DNA of 64,000 bases, taken from assembly GCA_016929065.1 (NCBI GenBank), contig JAFGJO010000007.1, positions 1 through 64,000 on the forward strand, given 5' to 3'. Source of the DNA: Spirochaetales bacterium (GTDB lineage Bacteria > Spirochaetota > Spirochaetia > SZUA-6 > RPPD01). Shown here piece by piece: positions 45,964-64,000 of the stretch; the first letter of the stretch is position 1, and the number at the start of each line of letters is the position of its first letter. Both the position numbers and the translations under genes were made by a program. The notes under the pieces are model-generated. The model was not told the DNA's origin. It made no database searches and saw only the letters and a program-made list of their open reading frames with translations.

Positions 45964-46945
45964 TCTGGGCAATCCTGTTAACCGGGTAGAGCGGCTTCCC
46001 TTCCTTAAAGGTTTCGACAACATTCAATGCTGCGAGAGTTTTCAACTCTATCACAGATTCGCCGCTGTGATAAGCCGTATGATCAGTCAGGACCGTATTA
46101 TCCAGAGCTTTCAGGCCGCAGTCAGCAGGCAGGGGTTCCTGTTCAAAAACATCGATTCCCGCACCGGCAATTCTGTTATTCTTCAGGGCGGTGACAAGTG
46201 CTGTTTCATCGATGATTTTTCCCCTGGATGTATTGACAATAATGGCATTGTGCTTCATCACTGATATTTCTTTTCTGCTCACCAGATATTTGCTCTGGTC
46301 GGTAAGCGGAACATGGAGTGTTATAATATCGGATTTCATGCAGAGTTCTTCAAGGGAGACGGCAGACGCACCGCATTCACTGATGACTCTCTCGTCCTGC
46401 CAGGGATCAGAGACAAGGATACGGGAAAGATTCCATCCCGACATTTTTCTGCAGACTGCCTGGCCGATTTTCCCAAACCCGATTATTCCGAGTGTTTTCC
46501 CGGCAATCCGTGTTGATTCTATTTTCTGCTCCAGTTTCCAGTTTCCGGCCCGTACCAGCCTGTCTTTTAATGCAATGTTACGGGTACACGACAGGATGAG
46601 TGCAATGGCGTGGTCTGATGTCTCTTCAATGCAGTAATCGGGAACATTGGCTACCCAGATTTTCCTGTCATCAGCTGCCTGAACATCGACATTGTCAAAT
46701 CCTGTTCCGTATCGTGAAATGACCGCGCAATGCTCCATATTCAGAATTGTTTCTGCTGAAAGCGGATGCATGTTGACGATGACTCCGTCTGCATCGAATG
46801 TGAGCCGGCGGATTTCTGCGTCACATTCGGGATTGGCAGTAACAACATTGCAGCCTGCATCGATGAGTATTTTCCGCTCTATGTCATGATCCGGAAAAAC
46901 GCTGTCAAGAATAACAATTTTTGGATTGAGAATGTTTTTTTTCAT
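45917..46945 (-). CDS. D-isomer-specific 2-hydroxyacid dehydrogenase
   Basis: 342 residues. The NAD-binding Rossmann motif is GIIGFGKIGQAV, followed by a distal acidic SDPWQ. Catalytic residues: Arg in NTSRGKIIDE, Glu in VFEQEPLP, His in LTDHTAYHS. The N-terminus (VISRYGTGFDNVDVQAA) is the substrate-domain signature. It resembles C-terminal-binding-protein/hydroxypyruvate-type enzymes, with a ~20-residue longer C-terminus. Its start overlaps the stop of the sensor kinase by 4 nt (ATGA), so translation is coupled. Confidence 0.9.
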   Translation of the reverse strand: MKKNILNPKIVILDSVFPDHDIERKILIDAGCNVVTANPECDAEIRRLTFDADGVIVNMHPLSAETILNMEHCAVISRYGTGFDNVDVQAADDRKIWVANVPDYCIEETSDHAIALILSCTRNIALKDRLVRAGNWKLEQKIESTRIAGKTLGIIGFGKIGQAVCRKMSGWNLSRILVSDPWQDERVISECGASAVSLEELCMKSDIITLHVPLTDQSKYLVSRKEISVMKHNAIIVNTSRGKIIDETALVTALKNNRIAGAGIDVFEQEPLPADCGLKALDNTVLTDHTAYHSGESVIELKTLAALNVVETFKEGKPLYPVNRIAQNVVQEKLALSSSSIY

Positions 46946-49392
46946 GGTATATGTTCCTTTGCAGTGTCGAGAATTTCTCGTACTTTGCGTTGAAGTGTAT
47001 CGTTGTCAAAGGGCTTGGTGATAAAATTTGTGCTGTAGTCATCTGCGCACCCTTTTTTCCGAAGCGTTTCATCCGAGTAACCGGAGATGAAGAGCACCGG
47101 CAGAGAGGGGCGTTTTTTCCGCATCAGCTCTGCGGTTTCCTTTCCGGTAATGCCCGGAACGATCACATCGGCGATGAATAAATCAAACGGTGTCTCCTGC
47201 TCATGCTGATTGAATAAAAGAAGCGCTTCCCGGCTGTTGGAGGCTTCCTTGACCGAATAGCCCTGCCATGCAAGCAGTTTGATCATCAGCGTTCGGACAT
47301 TTTTGTCATCCTCCAGGAGCAGAATGTGTTCAGTTCCGGCCATGGACAGCCCGGATTCTGCAACTGCTGTCCCGTTTTTCGGCAGAACTGATGCTTTTGG
47401 AAACGACAGCATAAACGAAGTCCCCCTGCCGGGAACACTCTCGACGATTATTTTTCCGCCTGCGGTCTGGACAATCGCATGAACAGTCGCCAGACCAAGC
47501 CCTGTGCCTTTCCCCTGTTCTTTGGTCGAGAAAAACGGATCAAATATATGGGCTTTCACTTCTTCGGACATCCCTGTTCCGCTGTCTGCTACCGTCAAAG
47601 TAATCCCTCCCGGGCTGTCCGCATTCCCTGAATCTGCCGGCTGCTCTGCGGTGATAATTGAAATGGTGCCTCCCCGGGGCATGGCATCGCGCGCATTAAT
47701 TACCAGGTTCATGATAACCTGCTCTATCTGGCCCTTGTCCGCAATAATCAGGGCCTGCTGCGTGTTGAATTCGGTATAGAGAATGATATTTTCGCCGAGC
47801 AGGCGCCGGAGCATCCGCTCCATCTCGGTCACACTATCATTGACATTAATTACGGACTGCCGTTCAATCTGTTTCCGGCTGAAATAACAGAGTTGTTTTG
47901 CAAGTTCAGCAGCTTTTTCTCCCGCCTGCTTGATTTCTCTGATATCGTTCTGAAAAGTTGTGTTTTTCAACGATTCAATAAGTATTTCGGAGTATCCAAG
48001 AATGACGGCAATGAGATTGTTGAAATCATGTGCAACTCCGCCTGCCAGGCGGCCAACCGCTTCCATTTTCAGGGAATGCGACAGCTCGTGTTCCAGCCTG
48101 CGTTTCTCGGTGATGTCGGCAAGAGATACATGGATCGAGAGAATGGAACTGTCGGGACGCAGCCGTGCGGTGATGCTGCCCAGTACACAGATTGTGGTAT
48201 GGTTTTTAAGGTGAATCCGCAATTCATGCTGGGATAGATGATGTTCCTGTTTCAGCTTTAAAACCAGCTTGTCCCAGGAATCAGTTGAATCCATAAACGG
48301 TGAAAATGATACATTCCCTTCAGAAAGCAGTATTCCCAGCAATGATTCGAATGCGGGATTTGCCAGGAGGATGGTGCTGTCCGGTGCTATGATTGCGTTC
48401 GCCGCCGGGGTATCCAGAAAAAACCGACGGAACTGGTTTTCCCGTTCCTGTGAAGCAAAGAGTTCCTTTAAGGTGGAAAGGATTCCCGATCCAATTGAGG
48501 CGAGCGCAGACCCCACAGCGGCATCGTGTTCTGTGAAAGATGCTTCCTTTTTGTTATGAAGGGAAATAAATCCCAATACATGATCATGATTATAGGTGAG
48601 GGGGAGTACCAGCGTTGAGTTGTCTGTATAGCCTTCCCACCCGCTGGGTTCACCGGCCTTTTCAGCGTGCAGGTCTTTTACCAGAATGAGTTCCCGCTGT
48701 TCATGCGCCTGGCCAAGCAGACTGTTTTGCGAAAGCGGCAATGTAATTTCCTCGGGTACATGTCCCGGGTCAAGTGAATACACCCGAAGCAGTTTATTGC
48801 CTTCAAGGATAAAAAAGCTTCCCCCCGATGCATTGAGCGTCTGCTGGAATTCTGTCATTAATGCCCGGCCAAAATCAGAGAGATACAGGCATTTTGCCAG
48901 TTTTTTTGGTGTCACCAGAAGAGCGGTAATGGCTTCCTGCAAAGCCGCTATACATGACTGTGTTTTTGAATGCTCCTGGTACATGGACATGTGTTCGCAA
49001 TGCCGGTCGATGAGATGTTCCAGTTCTTTTGGATTTACCGGAGTGCGGACAAGCGCGTATGCGCCTTTTGCAAGCAGTTCGCAGGCATTTGAATAGGAGT
49101 GTTCATCGGTTGCGATGATACAGGTCGCGGGATGGATGCTCTGGATTTTTTTTAACAATTCATCCGGGGGCAGGGATTTGTCGGAAATATCAAGAATATG
49201 CAGGCGGGGAAAAGCCTGGTTATCGATTGTCTTGAGGCAGTTTTCGGCATTGGTAAAAACCGGATGAAACCCCTTTTTTTCCAGCAGTGTTTTCAGCGGT
49301 GACAATGTCCCGTCTTTGGACTCGACAAGGAGGGCAGTATTTTTTTGATGGAGGTCGTGTTTTTGTGAATGCTCCTGTGCAATACTGCTCAT
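46942..49392 (-). CDS. hybrid histidine kinase with N-terminal receiver-like, GAF, PAS, kinase and receiver domains
   Basis: About 816 residues, no membrane segment, so cytosolic. The start at 49392 has GAAGGGA upstream. Domains in order: a degenerate receiver (~15-125; the acidic pair and switch Lys are missing, but HILDIS keeps the Asp); GAF (~170-310, [19 protein letters not shown]); PAS (~330-440, [20 protein letters not shown]); HisKA with [18 protein letters not shown]; and HATPase ([26 protein letters not shown]). A C-terminal receiver is intact ([29 protein letters not shown]). Phosphotransfer from the kinase His to the C-terminal receiver Asp is expected. It is translationally coupled to the dehydrogenase. 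Confidence 0.92.
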
Positions 49393-49703
49393 GATAGAAT
49401 TCCCTTCATTGATTCGTGTTTCCCGGGACAACCGGCTGCCTGCATAAACACAGTCATAGACCATGTCCCATTATATATTGTGAGACTTTTCGAGCTTCCC
49501 TATGATTATCGGGAAAATTATACGGAAGCAAAGCGTTTTTACTCTCTATTCAGGGCTGTTTTCGAACAAAAACCAGGAAAAAATCCAATCCTGGAACAGG
49601 AAATAAATTACCCGGATGGTCTGTGTACTGTAGAATTGAGGCCGAAATTTATAATGAAAATACTGTTTGCTCTTTGAAACATGTTGAATTAGAGTGATAG
49701 TGT
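49393..49703. other. 311-nt divergent intergenic region
   Basis: Lies between the hybrid kinase and the LacI-MCP gene. No promoter with good -35/-10 spacing stands out on either strand. The ORF on the plus strand (49369-49677) has no SD and is judged spurious. Confidence 0.4.
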
Positions 49704-52136
49704 ATGAAGAACGACACACGCCGCCCTCACAACAACAAACCAACCGTTGCTTTTTGTATCCGGGGTATCGGCTCCGGAGCCGGTACGGAAATATGGAAAG
49801 GCATTACCTTCGCGGTGAAGAATGCCGACGCACATTTGATAACGCTGTACGGTGGAGTGCTGGGAAAAGCACAGGGAAATGTCATCTATGACTTTATTCA
49901 GAAAGGCAATGTTGACGGGGTCATTTCCTGGGCGTCATCAGACAACAATGAGTTTACGCGGTATTATGATAAATTTAGGGGAATTCCGCTGATTACCCTC
50001 TCTCTGCATTTGCCGGGGTATCCGTCAGTGAGCATTGATTCGTACAGCGGAATGAAAGCCGCGATGGATCATCTGACAAAAGATCACGGCTATAAAAAAA
50101 TCGCTTTTATCCGGGGCCCGGAACACCACATTTATGCGGTCGAACGGTTTCAGGCATATCTGGATTCCTTGAAGGAAAACAATATCCCCTATGATGAAAC
50201 GCTTGTTACTGATTTCGGCAATTTCCGGCCGGATGACGGGGTGAAGGCATATAAACAATTTATCCGGGACCAGAAACTGCAGCCGGGCAGGGATCTGGAG
50301 GCTGTTGTGGGGGTTTCGGACCAGAGTGTCGTCGCCTTTATGGAACTGGCAAAACAAGACGGGTACGATCTTCCCCGGGAGCTTGCTTTGACAGGATGCA
50401 ATTACTCGGATGCTGCAATTTCATCGGACCCGGGGATTACCAGTGTTTCCATGCCGTTTTTTGAGCAGGGAGTAAAGGCTGTGGAGCTGACCCTTGATAT
50501 GATTCAGGGCAGGCAAATACCGGAATCAACACTCCTTCCTGCGAAACTGGTAAAACTGCAGTCATGCGGGTGTACGCTTGTCGGTTCTGTGGTGCGGAAA
50601 AACCGGGAAGGGCAGCGCCTGTCTATTCTGAAAATATCAGCTAAAACGGCGGAACAGGATCTTCTTGACGAAACACAACAGCGGGAACTGCCCCAAAGGA
50701 TTGCAGACAGGGTTGCAGACAGGATTGAAAGCGTGGATATCAACCATTCCATGATTGAACAATACAGCCGTAAACTTGTTTACGCTTTTTGCAAGGCAGA
50801 CCCGGCAGAAGGCGAGCGTGAGTTTCTTGGAGCATTGGCCGCGGTGCTGCGGGCGACACTCCGGCAGGGGGGGCGGACTGATTCGTGGCATGAGATGCTG
50901 ACAATGCTTTCGGAGGCTGTCGGTCAAAGTGAAGCCCGGGCAGAAAATATTATCGAGGGCTTGCAGCGGCTTGAAAAGGGGCGGTTAATTGTAAGCGAGT
51001 ATGTAAAGCGTGAGTATTTCTCGATGTATGCGGATGCCGACTGGCGAATCAACCGGCTGCGCGACATATCGGCACGGATGTTTGAGGCGGGTTCACTCGA
51101 ACAGCTGGAGCAGGTACTTGCTTCAAGGATTTTTCCGTTCGGAATTAACGGGTATTTTGTCTGTTTATATAAAAATCCCGTTTCATACACATTCATGGAC
51201 CCTCTGCCGGAAATATCAACTCTTGTCATGGGAAAACTCGCGGAAGGAGCATGCACTTCAGCAGAGGGAGTCGGCAGCGAGTTTTGCACCGCCATGATAC
51301 TGCCCGATGCCCTGATACAAAAAATCGGAACACTCAATATTCTTGTGCTGCCGCTTTTTCAGCAGGATGTCCAGATTGGATACATTATTCTGAAAGACAC
51401 ACCGATACGAAACCATATGTACCAGATGTTTGGAGACCTGCTTTCAAGCAGTATACACAATATCAATCTCTTTCGTGAAATCGAAGGAGTGAAACGCGAA
51501 CTGGAAAAGACATTGGTTCTTCTTAAAAACAAGGCGGGGATCATCTCTGGAAACAGCCGCGATATCAGCACCCGGGTAAATGAAATTTCCCGGGCAACCG
51601 GCGAATCAGCACTTCATATCAGCGAAATCTCGGAGAATATTTCCCGAGTATTGAGTATTACCAGGGAAGCAGTAACGCTCGGCGGCAAGGTAAACTCGCT
51701 GATTTCCACCTTGAGAGACCAGTCCCTGAAGATTGGAAGTTTCTCTGATGTCATCTTTGATATTGCCCAGCAGACTAATGTTCTTTCGATTAATGCGGCG
51801 ATCGAATCAGCACGGGCAGGGGATATGGGCCGGGGATTTGCAATCGTCGCCCGCGAGATCAAGGAGCTTTCCCGGAAAACCGTTGTTTCAACAGAGGATA
51901 TAAACCAGATGATCGCACTCATCCAGGAGAGCACAAATACAACAGTCCGGCAGCTTGAAAGCATGATAAACATAGTGGAGACCATCTCGGACCATTCGCA
52001 GACGATTACCGATGCGATTCAGAAACAGTCACAAAGCATTACCAGTATCTCGGGGCTTTTATCCGAGGCCGCAAAAGGCTCTGACGATATTGCACGGGAA
52101 ATATCCGATGTTGCACGCGTCGGCGGGGACGCGTAG
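49704..52136 (+). CDS. soluble chemoreceptor with a LacI-type sugar-binding sensor
   Basis: 810 residues with no signal peptide and no membrane helix. Residues ~10-310 are a LacI/GalR-type periplasmic-binding-like domain (KPTVAFCIRGIGSGAGTEIW, VDGVISWASSDNNEF, VSIDSYSGMKAAMDHLTKDH, LALTGCNYSDAAISSDPGIT), lacking the HTH, and it ends near LQSCGC. A helical/GAF-like region (~430-600, WRINRLRDISARMFEAGSLE) leads to an MCP signalling hairpin (~610-800) with the highly conserved tip IFDIAQQTNVLSINAAIESA, then RAGDMGRGFAIVAREIKEL. It would sense a cytosolic ligand, probably a sugar or derivative, and control CheA. The SD is weak. Confidence 0.92.
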   Translation: MKNDTRRPHNNKPTVAFCIRGIGSGAGTEIWKGITFAVKNADAHLITLYGGVLGKAQGNVIYDFIQKGNVDGVISWASSDNNEFTRYYDKFRGIPLITLSLHLPGYPSVSIDSYSGMKAAMDHLTKDHGYKKIAFIRGPEHHIYAVERFQAYLDSLKENNIPYDETLVTDFGNFRPDDGVKAYKQFIRDQKLQPGRDLEAVVGVSDQSVVAFMELAKQDGYDLPRELALTGCNYSDAAISSDPGITSVSMPFFEQGVKAVELTLDMIQGRQIPESTLLPAKLVKLQSCGCTLVGSVVRKNREGQRLSILKISAKTAEQDLLDETQQRELPQRIADRVADRIESVDINHSMIEQYSRKLVYAFCKADPAEGEREFLGALAAVLRATLRQGGRTDSWHEMLTMLSEAVGQSEARAENIIEGLQRLEKGRLIVSEYVKREYFSMYADADWRINRLRDISARMFEAGSLEQLEQVLASRIFPFGINGYFVCLYKNPVSYTFMDPLPEISTLVMGKLAEGACTSAEGVGSEFCTAMILPDALIQKIGTLNILVLPLFQQDVQIGYIILKDTPIRNHMYQMFGDLLSSSIHNINLFREIEGVKRELEKTLVLLKNKAGIISGNSRDISTRVNEISRATGESALHISEISENISRVLSITREAVTLGGKVNSLISTLRDQSLKIGSFSDVIFDIAQQTNVLSINAAIESARAGDMGRGFAIVAREIKELSRKTVVSTEDINQMIALIQESTNTTVRQLESMINIVETISDHSQTITDAIQKQSQSITSISGLLSEAAKGSDDIAREISDVARVGGDA

Positions 52137-54968: not shown

Positions 54969-56594
54969 TCAGGATCCCTTTGTTTTTTCTGACATGTTTT
55001 TTACGACTTCCTGTAACATGACAGGATTGCTTTTTGTCATGGCATCGAGTAAATACTCTTCTGTCTTTTTCGGCATTGTCTTGAGCATCTCTGCCAGATG
55101 TCCGGGGCCGCCCTCAAATTCCATGGCAGTGGCTTTTGCCGTTTCAAACCTCCGTTTGATAACCCGTGAGACAGCCTCGATCACATTTAGCGCAACCGGT
55201 TTTATCTCGGCGATGCGGACTGCAATATCAGCCTGAAATTCTTTCGGGATAAAGGGGAGGACGCCGGCGGCAACAAGCGGGTCGATATGGGAGAGTACCA
55301 GTGCAATGATTTGGGGATGCTCATGTACCAGAAAGTTTGCCAATAGTTCCCGTTCTATTTGAGCAGCAAACTGGAGCGGCTGGCTGGTTTGAACCGGTTC
55401 TTCAATATTGTTTTGGGCAGTACCAAAGAAAAGCTGGTCGGTCAATTCGGTCTGCCGTGCCGACAATTCGCTTAATTTGTTTTCAATTTTCTGCATTGAC
55501 TCTTTGATCGTTTTCCCAAAACGGAAAAGTACTTCATCGGAAGCTGCAGTATCTTTTTGCTCAGATTTCTCATCGGCATGTTCAAAATCGGCAATTGTTT
55601 CATCCCAAATATTGGAAACAATAAACTCATTGTGCTTTCCGGTTTTTTTCGGCACAAGCGGCAATACAGTCTGATTGCCGCATTCAAGACATGCTGTCCC
55701 CGCATCCAGCCCGCTGATTGCAACAAGACTTCCTTTTTTAAGCTCCTGCAGACGCTGCAGGGAAATATCATCGGTACTGTAATACAGCGCAGCGGGTACC
55801 TTAAACCGTGTCGTCCATGCAAGATTTTTATCGAGTTCTTCCTTGTACATTTCCCTGCGCGGAGAAGAATACCAGTATTGGGCGTTCAGTTTGTAAATGA
55901 TCGGCTCGATGGTGAGAAAGGGGATACAGAAATTCATGAATCCCCTGGCATCGCCGATGATGCATTGGAAGGTGACCAGCACGATCATTTCATGGGGTGG
56001 AACAATCTGGCAGAAGGCGGGATTTGTATCCAGCGCGCCCAGCCGCGGATGCAAATCAAGGACAGTAGACCATGCATCGCGGAGATTTTTCAGGAGCCGC
56101 AGGTACACTTCTTCTATAATGCCTGATTCACAGTCGGTAAGATCTTTTTGCTGTGAGACCGGTGTGGCGGACCTGCCCCCTGCAAGAAGTTCAATAAACG
56201 CGCTGCTTAGATCCGGGTCCATCTGGAGCAGGGCGCTCCCTTTCAGCGGGTCCATATTAATAATACCCAGTGTCGAGGGAGCGGGTGTTGAACGAATCGC
56301 CTCGTCATAGGTCATTTGATCCACACTGCCGACTTTGATATGGCAATCAGTCTTGCACATGCCGGAAAGCAGAATAGTGGAGCTGCGGGCAAATGACTCA
56401 TGGATTATGGAGAGGGTTCGCAGCTGGTCGCGGGAAAACTTGTCCGGCCGGCGGAAATCATATTTCTTTACTTTTATCTCACGGTCCGCCGCGTGGTTTG
56501 AGGCGACAATATCCTTCGCCTTCCATGTCCCAATGACATACAGTCCGTCAACTTCGGGGAATATTTCATCAGTCTTTGTTTCTTTGTCGGACAT
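54969..56594 (-). CDS. FliM fused to the FliG middle domain
   Basis: 541 residues, far longer than FliM (~340). FliM part: KKYDFRRPDKFSRDQLRTLS (41-60) with HESFAR after it, IINMDPLKGSALLQMDPDL (111-129) and LLAGG, then a SpoA domain (~255-335, LAWTTRFKVPAALYYSTDDI). A charged coiled linker spans ~340-400. FliG part: ELLANFLVHEHPQIIALVLS has the EHPQ motif (425-428) that in FliG binds FliM, then FIPKEFQADIAVRIAEIKPV, and the Gly-Gly region FEGGPGHLAEMLKTMP. It stops before the FliG C-terminal torque domain. The N-terminal LSQxEIDALL CheY-docking peptide of FliM is absent. Cotranscribed with two FliN-like genes. Confidence 0.88.
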   Translation of the reverse strand: MSDKETKTDEIFPEVDGLYVIGTWKAKDIVASNHAADREIKVKKYDFRRPDKFSRDQLRTLSIIHESFARSSTILLSGMCKTDCHIKVGSVDQMTYDEAIRSTPAPSTLGIINMDPLKGSALLQMDPDLSSAFIELLAGGRSATPVSQQKDLTDCESGIIEEVYLRLLKNLRDAWSTVLDLHPRLGALDTNPAFCQIVPPHEMIVLVTFQCIIGDARGFMNFCIPFLTIEPIIYKLNAQYWYSSPRREMYKEELDKNLAWTTRFKVPAALYYSTDDISLQRLQELKKGSLVAISGLDAGTACLECGNQTVLPLVPKKTGKHNEFIVSNIWDETIADFEHADEKSEQKDTAASDEVLFRFGKTIKESMQKIENKLSELSARQTELTDQLFFGTAQNNIEEPVQTSQPLQFAAQIERELLANFLVHEHPQIIALVLSHIDPLVAAGVLPFIPKEFQADIAVRIAEIKPVALNVIEAVSRVIKRRFETAKATAMEFEGGPGHLAEMLKTMPKKTEEYLLDAMTKSNPVMLQEVVKNMSEKTKGS

Positions 56595-61664: not shown

Positions 61665-64000
61665 CTATAATCCAAAATCCGATTCAAGTGATGAAATATC
61701 CCAGGCATAGGTCGTGTCATTTTCGAAACCGAAGGTAGTACCGCCGTCCCAGGTGACATTTCTGTTGAGAATATGATCGCGTGAGTCATATTCAGTTGAT
61801 TCCGCGGCTACATTAGCCGCTGTGTTGGTGAGCGTTGTGTATGTGTCGGCACCTAGTCCGGTACATCCTTGAGCTTTCCATCCAATATGGGATGCATCGT
61901 CCAGATAATAGTAGGTGCTGCTGTTATACCAGAGTGTGGAGAGCAATGATCCCGCGCCGCTGAAGGTGACGTTTAACAAAGCCACCTGATCATAGAAACC
62001 GGAACCGCCCGGGTTTCGGCCGAAATCCGCTGTCAAGCCGCTGTCGACTGAGACGGTAGAGTCGATAAGAACATATCCTTTTCCAATTGTGTTCGGTGTC
62101 CCTGCTGTCATGGGAGTCCGTGAAACAAAGATATGGGCTTCAGAACTGAGGCCGTCGTTGACGCAGCGCAGGGAACAGTTTTCAAAAAGGGCCACGTCTG
62201 AGGTTCCCCAGATGTAGTCTGTGTTTCCTTCGATGTAACAGTTATAAAACCAGTTTTTCCCTGATGTAAGGATTGTATCCTGATTCGAAATAAATGAACA
62301 GTTGTATGCTGCCAGAGTCTTGTGGCCGTCAACATAATAATTGGCATTCGCAAAGTGGATTGTTTCCGCCTGGTTGCTTCCGCCTGACCGTATCCAGGTA
62401 TTCTGAAGAGCGACATTTTTCAGGACAAGGCTTGATGCGCTGAAGTAGAATGAAGCACGGGTGTGTGTGCTGCCGTTGAGCTGGCTCGAGTTCTTGTAGT
62501 GGATGATACAGGTGTCGCCGTGATTATTTCCGTCAGGTCCCTGAACAGTAATGGATTTTCCGCCTTTGTAGTATACCAGTTCGCGGTAGGTACCTGCTGC
62601 CACATCAATGGTCACTTCATCGTCTGATGGAAGCCCGGTTGCCAGATATGTCAAAGCGCCCTGGAGAGAACGGAAGTCCGCGGAGCTGCTTTCTGAATTA
62701 TCGACTGTAACACCTGCTGCACTGAGTGTCGGTGCTGCTGTTGTCGTGAAACTCCAGCTCGCGATGGAAGAATCATTGGTAAAACCGGTAAATGTTTGTC
62801 CATTCAGCACAGCAGTAATTGCAGTGGTCGGAATGGCAATATAATACTCTGTATTAAAATCAAGAATGCCGAAATGAGGGGTAAAGTACACACTGTTGCC
62901 CTCAACGCGTGCAAGCTGGTCGTCGACATTAATAACGGTGCTCCATGCTGTTTGCGATTCATCGGCAAATCCGATTGAATCAACTTCGGTTCCGTCTGCA
63001 GTGTATATCCGGATTGTTCCGCCTCCATTGAGTGTCGGAACATTGTCAAAGGTGATTCTTAATTCGCCGTCTGTGTAGGCACTGCCTTCATCGACCGCCG
63101 GATAAACACTTGTCAATGGCCCGTACGGGTCGCTGGTGGCAAAATCACTGACTGCAACAAGAATATTCCTGGTTTTCCCGGTATCAGCATTATTGGTAAC
63201 CGTGATGGTGGTTGTTCCCGCAGCAACCGGAGTGATGGTAATTGTCGAGGCTGACACACCATTGACTACCGATGCGGAAATAATGCCCGTATCGTATCCT
63301 GACAAAGAGACAGTTGCTACTGCGCCGCCGTCTGCAATTGCGGTGGCAGTCACATCAACCGGGCTTCCGCTCAGCGGCAGTTCTATTGTTGTGTCGCTGA
63401 GAAGCAGGGAAGACGGGATATGAGACTCAATGGTCCCTGTATCCGAATTGAAAACAACTTTACCGGCACCGTCGGCAATGACAAAGTCCGTGATGGTCGC
63501 ATCAACATTGCCGAATGCGATGCCTGCATACGCGTCGCCCGCACAGCCGTATACATTGCCCAGGCTGGTGGTTTGTTCGGTGTAGGCCAAACTCTGTGTA
63601 ACATTCGCCATATTCCAGTATACGGAACCGCTTGCACGCCGTACACTGATGGTCATTGTATCGCCGGCGGTATAGGTGACTGAACTTCCCCCTGTCCCGA
63701 CGCTTGTTAATGATGTTGTGCCTTTTGTATGATACCGCACTGCCTGATTGTTCGCATTCCGCATCAGGTTGAAAAAGTACGGCCCGTTCTGGTCAAAGTT
63801 TTCTATTATACCAACCGCAACGCCGCTTGAATTATTGGCCTGGTTCTGGGTGCCGACCGTGATCGTTGCAACGACACTGAAATCTCCGCTCATCTGAACC
63901 GGAAATACCAGAAAACAGGCATTGTTGTTCAGGTATGAATAGCTGACATCATCAACAACACCATATTTGAAAAGATCCCCGCTTGCAGTGGCGTGCGTCA
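61665..64000 (-). CDS. secreted pectinesterase with Ig-like modules, 5' truncated by window end
   Basis: At least 777 codons; the frame stays open to base 64000, so the N-terminus (and any signal peptide) lies outside. From the visible start: a ~170-residue lectin/CBM-like region (SGDFSVVATITVGTQNQ), a bacterial Ig-like domain (AGTTTITVTNNADTGKTRNI), a second Ig-like/Big_5 module (FDNVPTLNGGGTIRIYTADG), then a right-handed beta-helix pectin methylesterase (~ADFRSLQGALTYLA to the end). Catalytic motifs NQAETIHF, SNQDTI, NTDYIWG and an Arg in FGRNPGG are present. It demethylates pectin outside the cell. The usual R-P-W is R-N-P here. Confidence 0.88.
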   Translation of the reverse strand, partial: THATASGDLFKYGVVDDVSYSYLNNNACFLVFPVQMSGDFSVVATITVGTQNQANNSSGVAVGIIENFDQNGPYFFNLMRNANNQAVRYHTKGTTSLTSVGTGGSSVTYTAGDTMTISVRRASGSVYWNMANVTQSLAYTEQTTSLGNVYGCAGDAYAGIAFGNVDATITDFVIADGAGKVVFNSDTGTIESHIPSSLLLSDTTIELPLSGSPVDVTATAIADGGAVATVSLSGYDTGIISASVVNGVSASTITITPVAAGTTTITVTNNADTGKTRNILVAVSDFATSDPYGPLTSVYPAVDEGSAYTDGELRITFDNVPTLNGGGTIRIYTADGTEVDSIGFADESQTAWSTVINVDDQLARVEGNSVYFTPHFGILDFNTEYYIAIPTTAITAVLNGQTFTGFTNDSSIASWSFTTTAAPTLSAAGVTVDNSESSSADFRSLQGALTYLATGLPSDDEVTIDVAAGTYRELVYYKGGKSITVQGPDGNNHGDTCIIHYKNSSQLNGSTHTRASFYFSASSLVLKNVALQNTWIRSGGSNQAETIHFANANYYVDGHKTLAAYNCSFISNQDTILTSGKNWFYNCYIEGNTDYIWGTSDVALFENCSLRCVNDGLSSEAHIFVSRTPMTAGTPNTIGKGYVLIDSTVSVDSGLTADFGRNPGGSGFYDQVALLNVTFSGAGSLLSTLWYNSSTYYYLDDASHIGWKAQGCTGLGADTYTTLTNTAANVAAESTEYDSRDHILNRNVTWDGGTTFGFENDTTYAWDISSLESDFGL

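Follow-up and report, generated by a model that had tools for sequence, protein, structure and literature searches.

A probable soluble chemoreceptor with a LacI-type sensor domain in a Spirochaetales genome, one branch of a sensor family with many outputs

The window, by which we mean the whole 64,000-nucleotide stretch of Spirochaetales DNA analysed here, carries an intact gene whose 810-residue product consists of a LacI/GalR ligand-binding domain, a helical linker, a GAF fold and a complete MCP hairpin, in that order (Table 1). Pfam matches to this protein exceeded the gathering cut-offs for Peripla_BP_3 (residues 126-288, E 4e-18), Peripla_BP_1 (29-284, E 9e-9) and MCPsignal (PF00015, 666-805, E 3e-32, 112 bits against a cut-off of 34.6); the same scan gave no match to the LacI HTH (PF00356) and nothing between the LacI-type and MCPsignal matches. 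In NCBIfam, LacI-type repressors matched the N-terminus and MCPs the C-terminus, all with scores far under their cut-offs, so that the protein is the equivalog of neither. An in-frame TAG is the second codon before the ATG, which leaves no room for a longer N-terminus, a signal peptide or an HTH ahead of the start. Moreover, a simple hydropathy scan found zero segments over the membrane threshold in this protein, and none in any LacI-MCP fusion scored; tip scoring covered 11 non-LacI MCPs of this genome, and every one of them has such segments. The initial annotation had described a LacI/GalR-like fold that lacks its HTH, joined to a complete MCP tip in a protein with neither signal peptide nor membrane helix, and our data agree with it on each of these points: a Peripla_BP_3-type domain, an MCPsignal domain and the absence of a membrane segment are found together in the one protein.

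Table 1. Features of the LacI-MCP gene, in window coordinates
Feature	Position	Strand	Basis
Whole gene, soluble chemoreceptor	49704..52136	+	One intact ORF, ATG start, 810 aa, stop codon included
LacI/GalR-type two-lobe ligand-binding domain, residues 12-286, no HTH	49737..50561	+	Pfam Peripla_BP_1/3; AlphaFold, mostly pLDDT 85-98; Foldseek
SCGC motif, residues 287-290, end of LacI domain	50562..50573	+	Invariant in 36-sequence alignment, across outputs and phyla
Linker made up of helices, the last one long, residues 296-461	50589..51086	+	AlphaFold secondary structure
GAF fold, residues 465-564	51096..51395	+	Model pLDDT mostly 80-96; Foldseek GAF matches
Unbroken helix from GAF into descending arm of MCP hairpin, residues 572-704	51417..51815	+	AlphaFold; constant anchor-to-tip spacing
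MCP hairpin tip, residues 686-716, around NAAIESARAGDMGRGF	51759..51851	+	Motif NAAIExARAG..GRGF; Pfam MCPsignal
Ascending arm of MCP hairpin, residues 706-809, about 104 residues	51819..52130	+	AlphaFold; arm lengths compared with membrane MCPs of the genome

Several other genes of the window deserve mention. A GAF-kinase-receiver hybrid (46942-49464, minus strand) is divergent from the LacI-MCP gene, and a pectinesterase-like protein is encoded at 61665-63893 (minus strand). A 541-residue ORF (54969-56594, minus strand) contains a full FliM domain (residues 45-236, E 9e-62) and, after it, a FliG middle domain (417-487, E 4e-21), so that two flagellar switch proteins are naturally fused in it; similar but longer ORFs (611-726 residues) occur in several relatives, and the same genome also has FliM-like and FliG-like genes that are separate and of normal size.

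The full-length AlphaFold model, built on a 36-sequence alignment (mean pLDDT 80.5), places a two-lobe LacI fold, six helices, a GAF-like alpha/beta domain, the helix 572-704 and its antiparallel partner 706-809 in succession, so that structure prediction recovers the LacI fold, the GAF fold and the hairpin alike. The first strand of the ligand-binding domain begins at residue 14. In a Foldseek search with the full model, the best match was CelR with cellobiose and the next a LacI ancestor with D-fucose (TMt 0.72-0.88 for the top matches), and phmmer puts the same two proteins on top. By our own reading of the phmmer alignment, R148 occupies the position of LacI R197 and N233 that of LacI D274, both known ligand contacts in LacI. 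Indeed, R148 is invariant in all 36 family members of the alignment, as are H123, H128 and P95, and D206 is nearly so. On the strength of the invariant arginine, and with sugar-binding LacI proteins as the nearest solved folds, the ligand pocket predicted from the sequence looks competent; a sensor devoid of any plausible pocket, the weak point foreseen for the initial annotation, is not what we found. That annotation had also proposed the sensing of an intracellular sugar or metabolite, of which the cytosolic location holds, given the lack of a membrane part, and "sugar" stays a probable ligand class. The sugar assignment draws on these nearest folds and on the closest paralogue, which lies in a same-strand run with an upstream GH43 xylosidase-type gene and an aldo/keto reductase gene. 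It is rather unlikely that the LacI domain reads a non-sugar ligand instead (amino acid, nucleotide or other metabolite), a reading that would leave the remaining mechanism unchanged. LacI-fold domains bind purines too, and PurR was among the Foldseek matches; in several Treponema, moreover, the orthologue stands opposite a set of genes resembling a branched-chain amino-acid ABC transporter. However, both best-ranked ligand complexes among the structural matches contain sugars, and the transporter is not a conserved partner, because other Treponema orthologues have different neighbours. Neither the neighbours of the gene in the window nor those of its Treponema orthologues gave any pointer to a sugar, and gene neighbourhood was rejected as a guide to the ligand as no partner is conserved.

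The LacI domain ends in the SCGC motif, which is found in nearly all ORFs of the family. ORFs of plain-repressor size (336-366 residues; loci L098, L100 and L101; Bacillota and Pseudothermotoga) bear it as well, so the motif may belong to the structure of a single LacI subfamily and not be a second sensor; this suggests that it caps the LacI domain. The finding bears on another explanation, in which the LacI part would serve a structural role or bind a protein, in the way that CcpA binds HPr, while the signal would enter elsewhere, for instance at the GAF domain or at the SCGC cysteines (redox or metal). CcpA with HPr-Ser46-P does appear among the Foldseek matches, a GAF fold is present, and the cysteine motif is invariant across outputs and phyla. 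Yet R148, which occupies the ligand position of LacI, does not vary in the alignment either, and the motif in repressor-sized ORFs speaks for a cap, so that we regard this explanation as improbable and retain ligand binding by the LacI domain as the preferred reading.

Between sensor and hairpin, where the initial annotation had placed a GAF-like region, the Pfam GAF profile gave no match at E 1, but the predicted structure of residues 287-614, modelled separately (mean pLDDT 86.5), matches solved GAF domains. Foldseek against the PDB returned almost exclusively GAF domains (best E 1e-4, probability 1.0), among them 3oov, the GAF domain of a chemotaxis protein; such modest E-values are as expected for a GAF domain at 10-15% identity. 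The distance between GAF and tip, measured between the helix that follows the final GAF strand and the asparagine of the tip, is 117 residues in every member examined of the 13-sequence MCP clade described below, the 28H-like members. Short-arm fusions have 103 residues here, two further members 124 and 131, and one more 127; all values but this last one differ by multiples of seven. Such heptad-quantised spacing is the expectation for a coiled coil that keeps its register, which argues that movements of the GAF domain reach the tip.

The residues NAAIESARAGDMGRGF, canonical at the tip for contact with CheA and CheW, are kept; the contact role is known from E. coli Tsr. A histidine in place of arginine at the tip, considered as the mark of a dead tip in some relatives, was dropped as such a sign, most of the scored membrane MCPs of the same genome sharing it. 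The ascending arm has about 104 residues against 155-213 in the membrane MCPs of the same genome (the longest of which include C-terminal tails), and because the arms are shorter, the joining of the same array is not assured. Among the described MCP length classes (PMC6943060), the hairpin would fit the short, 28H-like one by its arm of about 104 residues, an estimate from length. Relatives have the methylation-like motifs ME[EQ] and AIxEQ in their two arms; with GES and IQKQ at these places, the protein studied here appears, as judged from its sequence, to have lost part of the methylation-like pairs.

The same genome carries genes for CheA, CheW, a CheW-CheR fusion, CheR, CheB and CheD. Three of its genes are of the CheA type and sister proteins of the LacI-MCP drive transcription and kinases, so the tip might conceivably work in a non-flagellar chemosensory pathway and tune another process. 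Flagellar switch genes are present, however, and our data link the tip to no particular CheA; we consider such a role unlikely, and a place in chemotaxis remains our preferred interpretation.

The sensor is not confined to this protein. All 17 Peripla_BP_3 matches of the same genome fall within ORFs of 737-1140 residues, and each of these LacI-type sensors is fused to an output: 4 to MCPs, 8 to histidine kinases (one of them degenerate), 3 to AraC and 2 to LuxR domains. The 17 ORFs are alike through the GAF domain, sharing a LacI-SCGC-helical-GAF front end, and differ in output. The LacI HTH has a single match in this genome, located elsewhere than the LacI-MCP gene. One LacI-GAF paralogue (L014, 2268-4736, plus strand) stands tail to tail with a LacI-MCP gene and has a kinase-like C-terminus that gives no Pfam match and is by eye a degenerate histidine kinase; in a genome of the same family, three short-hairpin LacI-MCP fusions lie in tandem (L052, 1763-8933, minus strand). 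A scan of 84,980 species genomes, with two peptide patterns taken from a four-sequence alignment of MCP members, found 50 relatives, whose hosts include spirochaetes, Bacillota and Chloroflexota. Outside the source genome, the outputs include GGDEF, GGDEF-EAL, HD-GYP, SpoIIE and several kinase types. Among the relatives examined, MCP fusions were seen in spirochaetes only, including Treponema berlinense ATCC BAA-909, whose deposited genome has one LacI-MCP copy; since the patterns were derived from MCP members, the absence of MCP fusions outside spirochaetes is weak evidence. Within 393 spirochaete genomes sampled, a close LacI-MCP relative was found in at least 6, a lower bound from a search of five candidates per genome at a strict threshold that undercounts diverged fusions; genomes outside this count do contain diverged fusions. 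Plasmid records had no place matching at least 80% of the 810-residue protein. With close relatives in so few of the sampled spirochaete genomes, fusion to an MCP tip is unusual, as had been supposed. The initial interpretation as a whole was right on the domains and on the cytosolic location; what it missed is that many proteins with different outputs share LacI-GAF as their front end, the MCP version being one branch of this large family.

A maximum-likelihood tree was computed from 73 front ends, 22 of them from MCP fusions; it is a quick tree, and some of its branches are long. One clade (SH-aLRT 98) unites 13 MCP fusions, the protein studied here among them, and takes in the source genome, Treponema and a further spirochaete MAG, the lineages having paralogues in common. 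Five short-arm fusions form a separate group (support 90). A single origin of all 22 LacI-MCP fusions was rejected by an AU test (p 0.007) on this quick, long-branched tree, with the group named from the output domains. The protein is closest to a paralogue, with which it shares 41% identity along the full length, and dN/dS was taken from three Treponema orthologues, where it is 0.05-0.06 overall and 0.03-0.07 in each part; these orthologues are under purifying selection. A chance architecture is excluded, since 21 more full-length proteins from this and other genomes share the layout and dN/dS of the orthologues is near 0.05. Together with the invariant pocket arginine and the heptad-quantised GAF-to-tip spacing, this low dN/dS supports a working device.

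Taken together, the gene probably encodes a soluble cytoplasmic chemoreceptor that reads an intracellular ligand via its LacI-type domain and signals through the GAF domain to a CheA/CheW-binding tip. The LacI/GalR-type domain would bind a cytosolic small molecule, with a sugar or a derivative of one as the likeliest candidate, and closure of its lobes would alter the dimer. The change might be relayed via the helical linker and the GAF domain into the one continuous helix that is the descending MCP arm, and the tip would then modify CheA activity, in either direction, in a CheA/CheW array, which may be a membrane array with the receptor as a guest or a cytoplasmic one. Through reuse of the same front end with kinase and transcription outputs, intracellular ligand levels would be coupled to gene expression as well as to motility. 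With more doubt, we tentatively propose that LacI-SCGC-helical-GAF is a general sensor of the cell interior, plugged into many outputs by several lineages in place of LacI repressors and joined to MCP tips more than once in spirochaetes, where it may allow taxis by intracellular sugar pools with two possible inputs, the LacI pocket and the GAF or cysteine site.

Each part of this device has known counterparts. The LacI/GalR repressors CelR, LacI, CcpA and PurR have the ligand-binding fold and the pocket positions in common with the LacI-MCP protein but an HTH with DNA-binding output, in place of which it has an MCP hairpin. Cytoplasmic MCPs such as TlpD, TlpT and those of the described cytoplasmic arrays likewise have no membrane helix, a complete hairpin and an expected CheA/CheW partner (PMC3964821, PMC13001251), whereas their sensors are others (CZB in TlpD, PMC9321776) than a LacI-type domain with GAF. 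LacI-GAF fusions with GGDEF, histidine kinase, AraC, LuxR, SpoIIE or HD-GYP share the whole front end and differ in the output domain, and within this family the MCP proteins of the 13-sequence clade make up a branch of their own. A further parallel is CheWS of Treponema denticola, in which an array-attached sensor reads an intracellular metabolite, SAM (PMC10653840); there a CheR-like domain is carried on CheW, and here a LacI domain on an MCP. A review of c-di-GMP lists the LacI-type domain merely as a putative sensor (PMC8846402). In the literature searched, a collection of 5.39 million papers that takes in few subscription titles, no paper names both Pfam families and none was found that describes this architecture. 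All parts belong to known families; within that literature, neither their joining to an MCP nor how wide the front-end family is appears to have been described.

Sugar chemotaxis is usually explained by periplasmic binding or by PTS uptake. A cytosolic receptor with the sensor of a repressor would tie taxis to internal ligand levels, and its paralogues would connect transcription, kinases and, in relatives, c-di-GMP turnover to a ligand of that kind. The copy in T. berlinense ATCC BAA-909 offers a route to testing this proposal, and the heptad-spaced joints between GAF and tip form a natural series of receptors for studies of signal transfer. Thus, by means of a receptor located in its interior, the cell may steer by what has been taken up.
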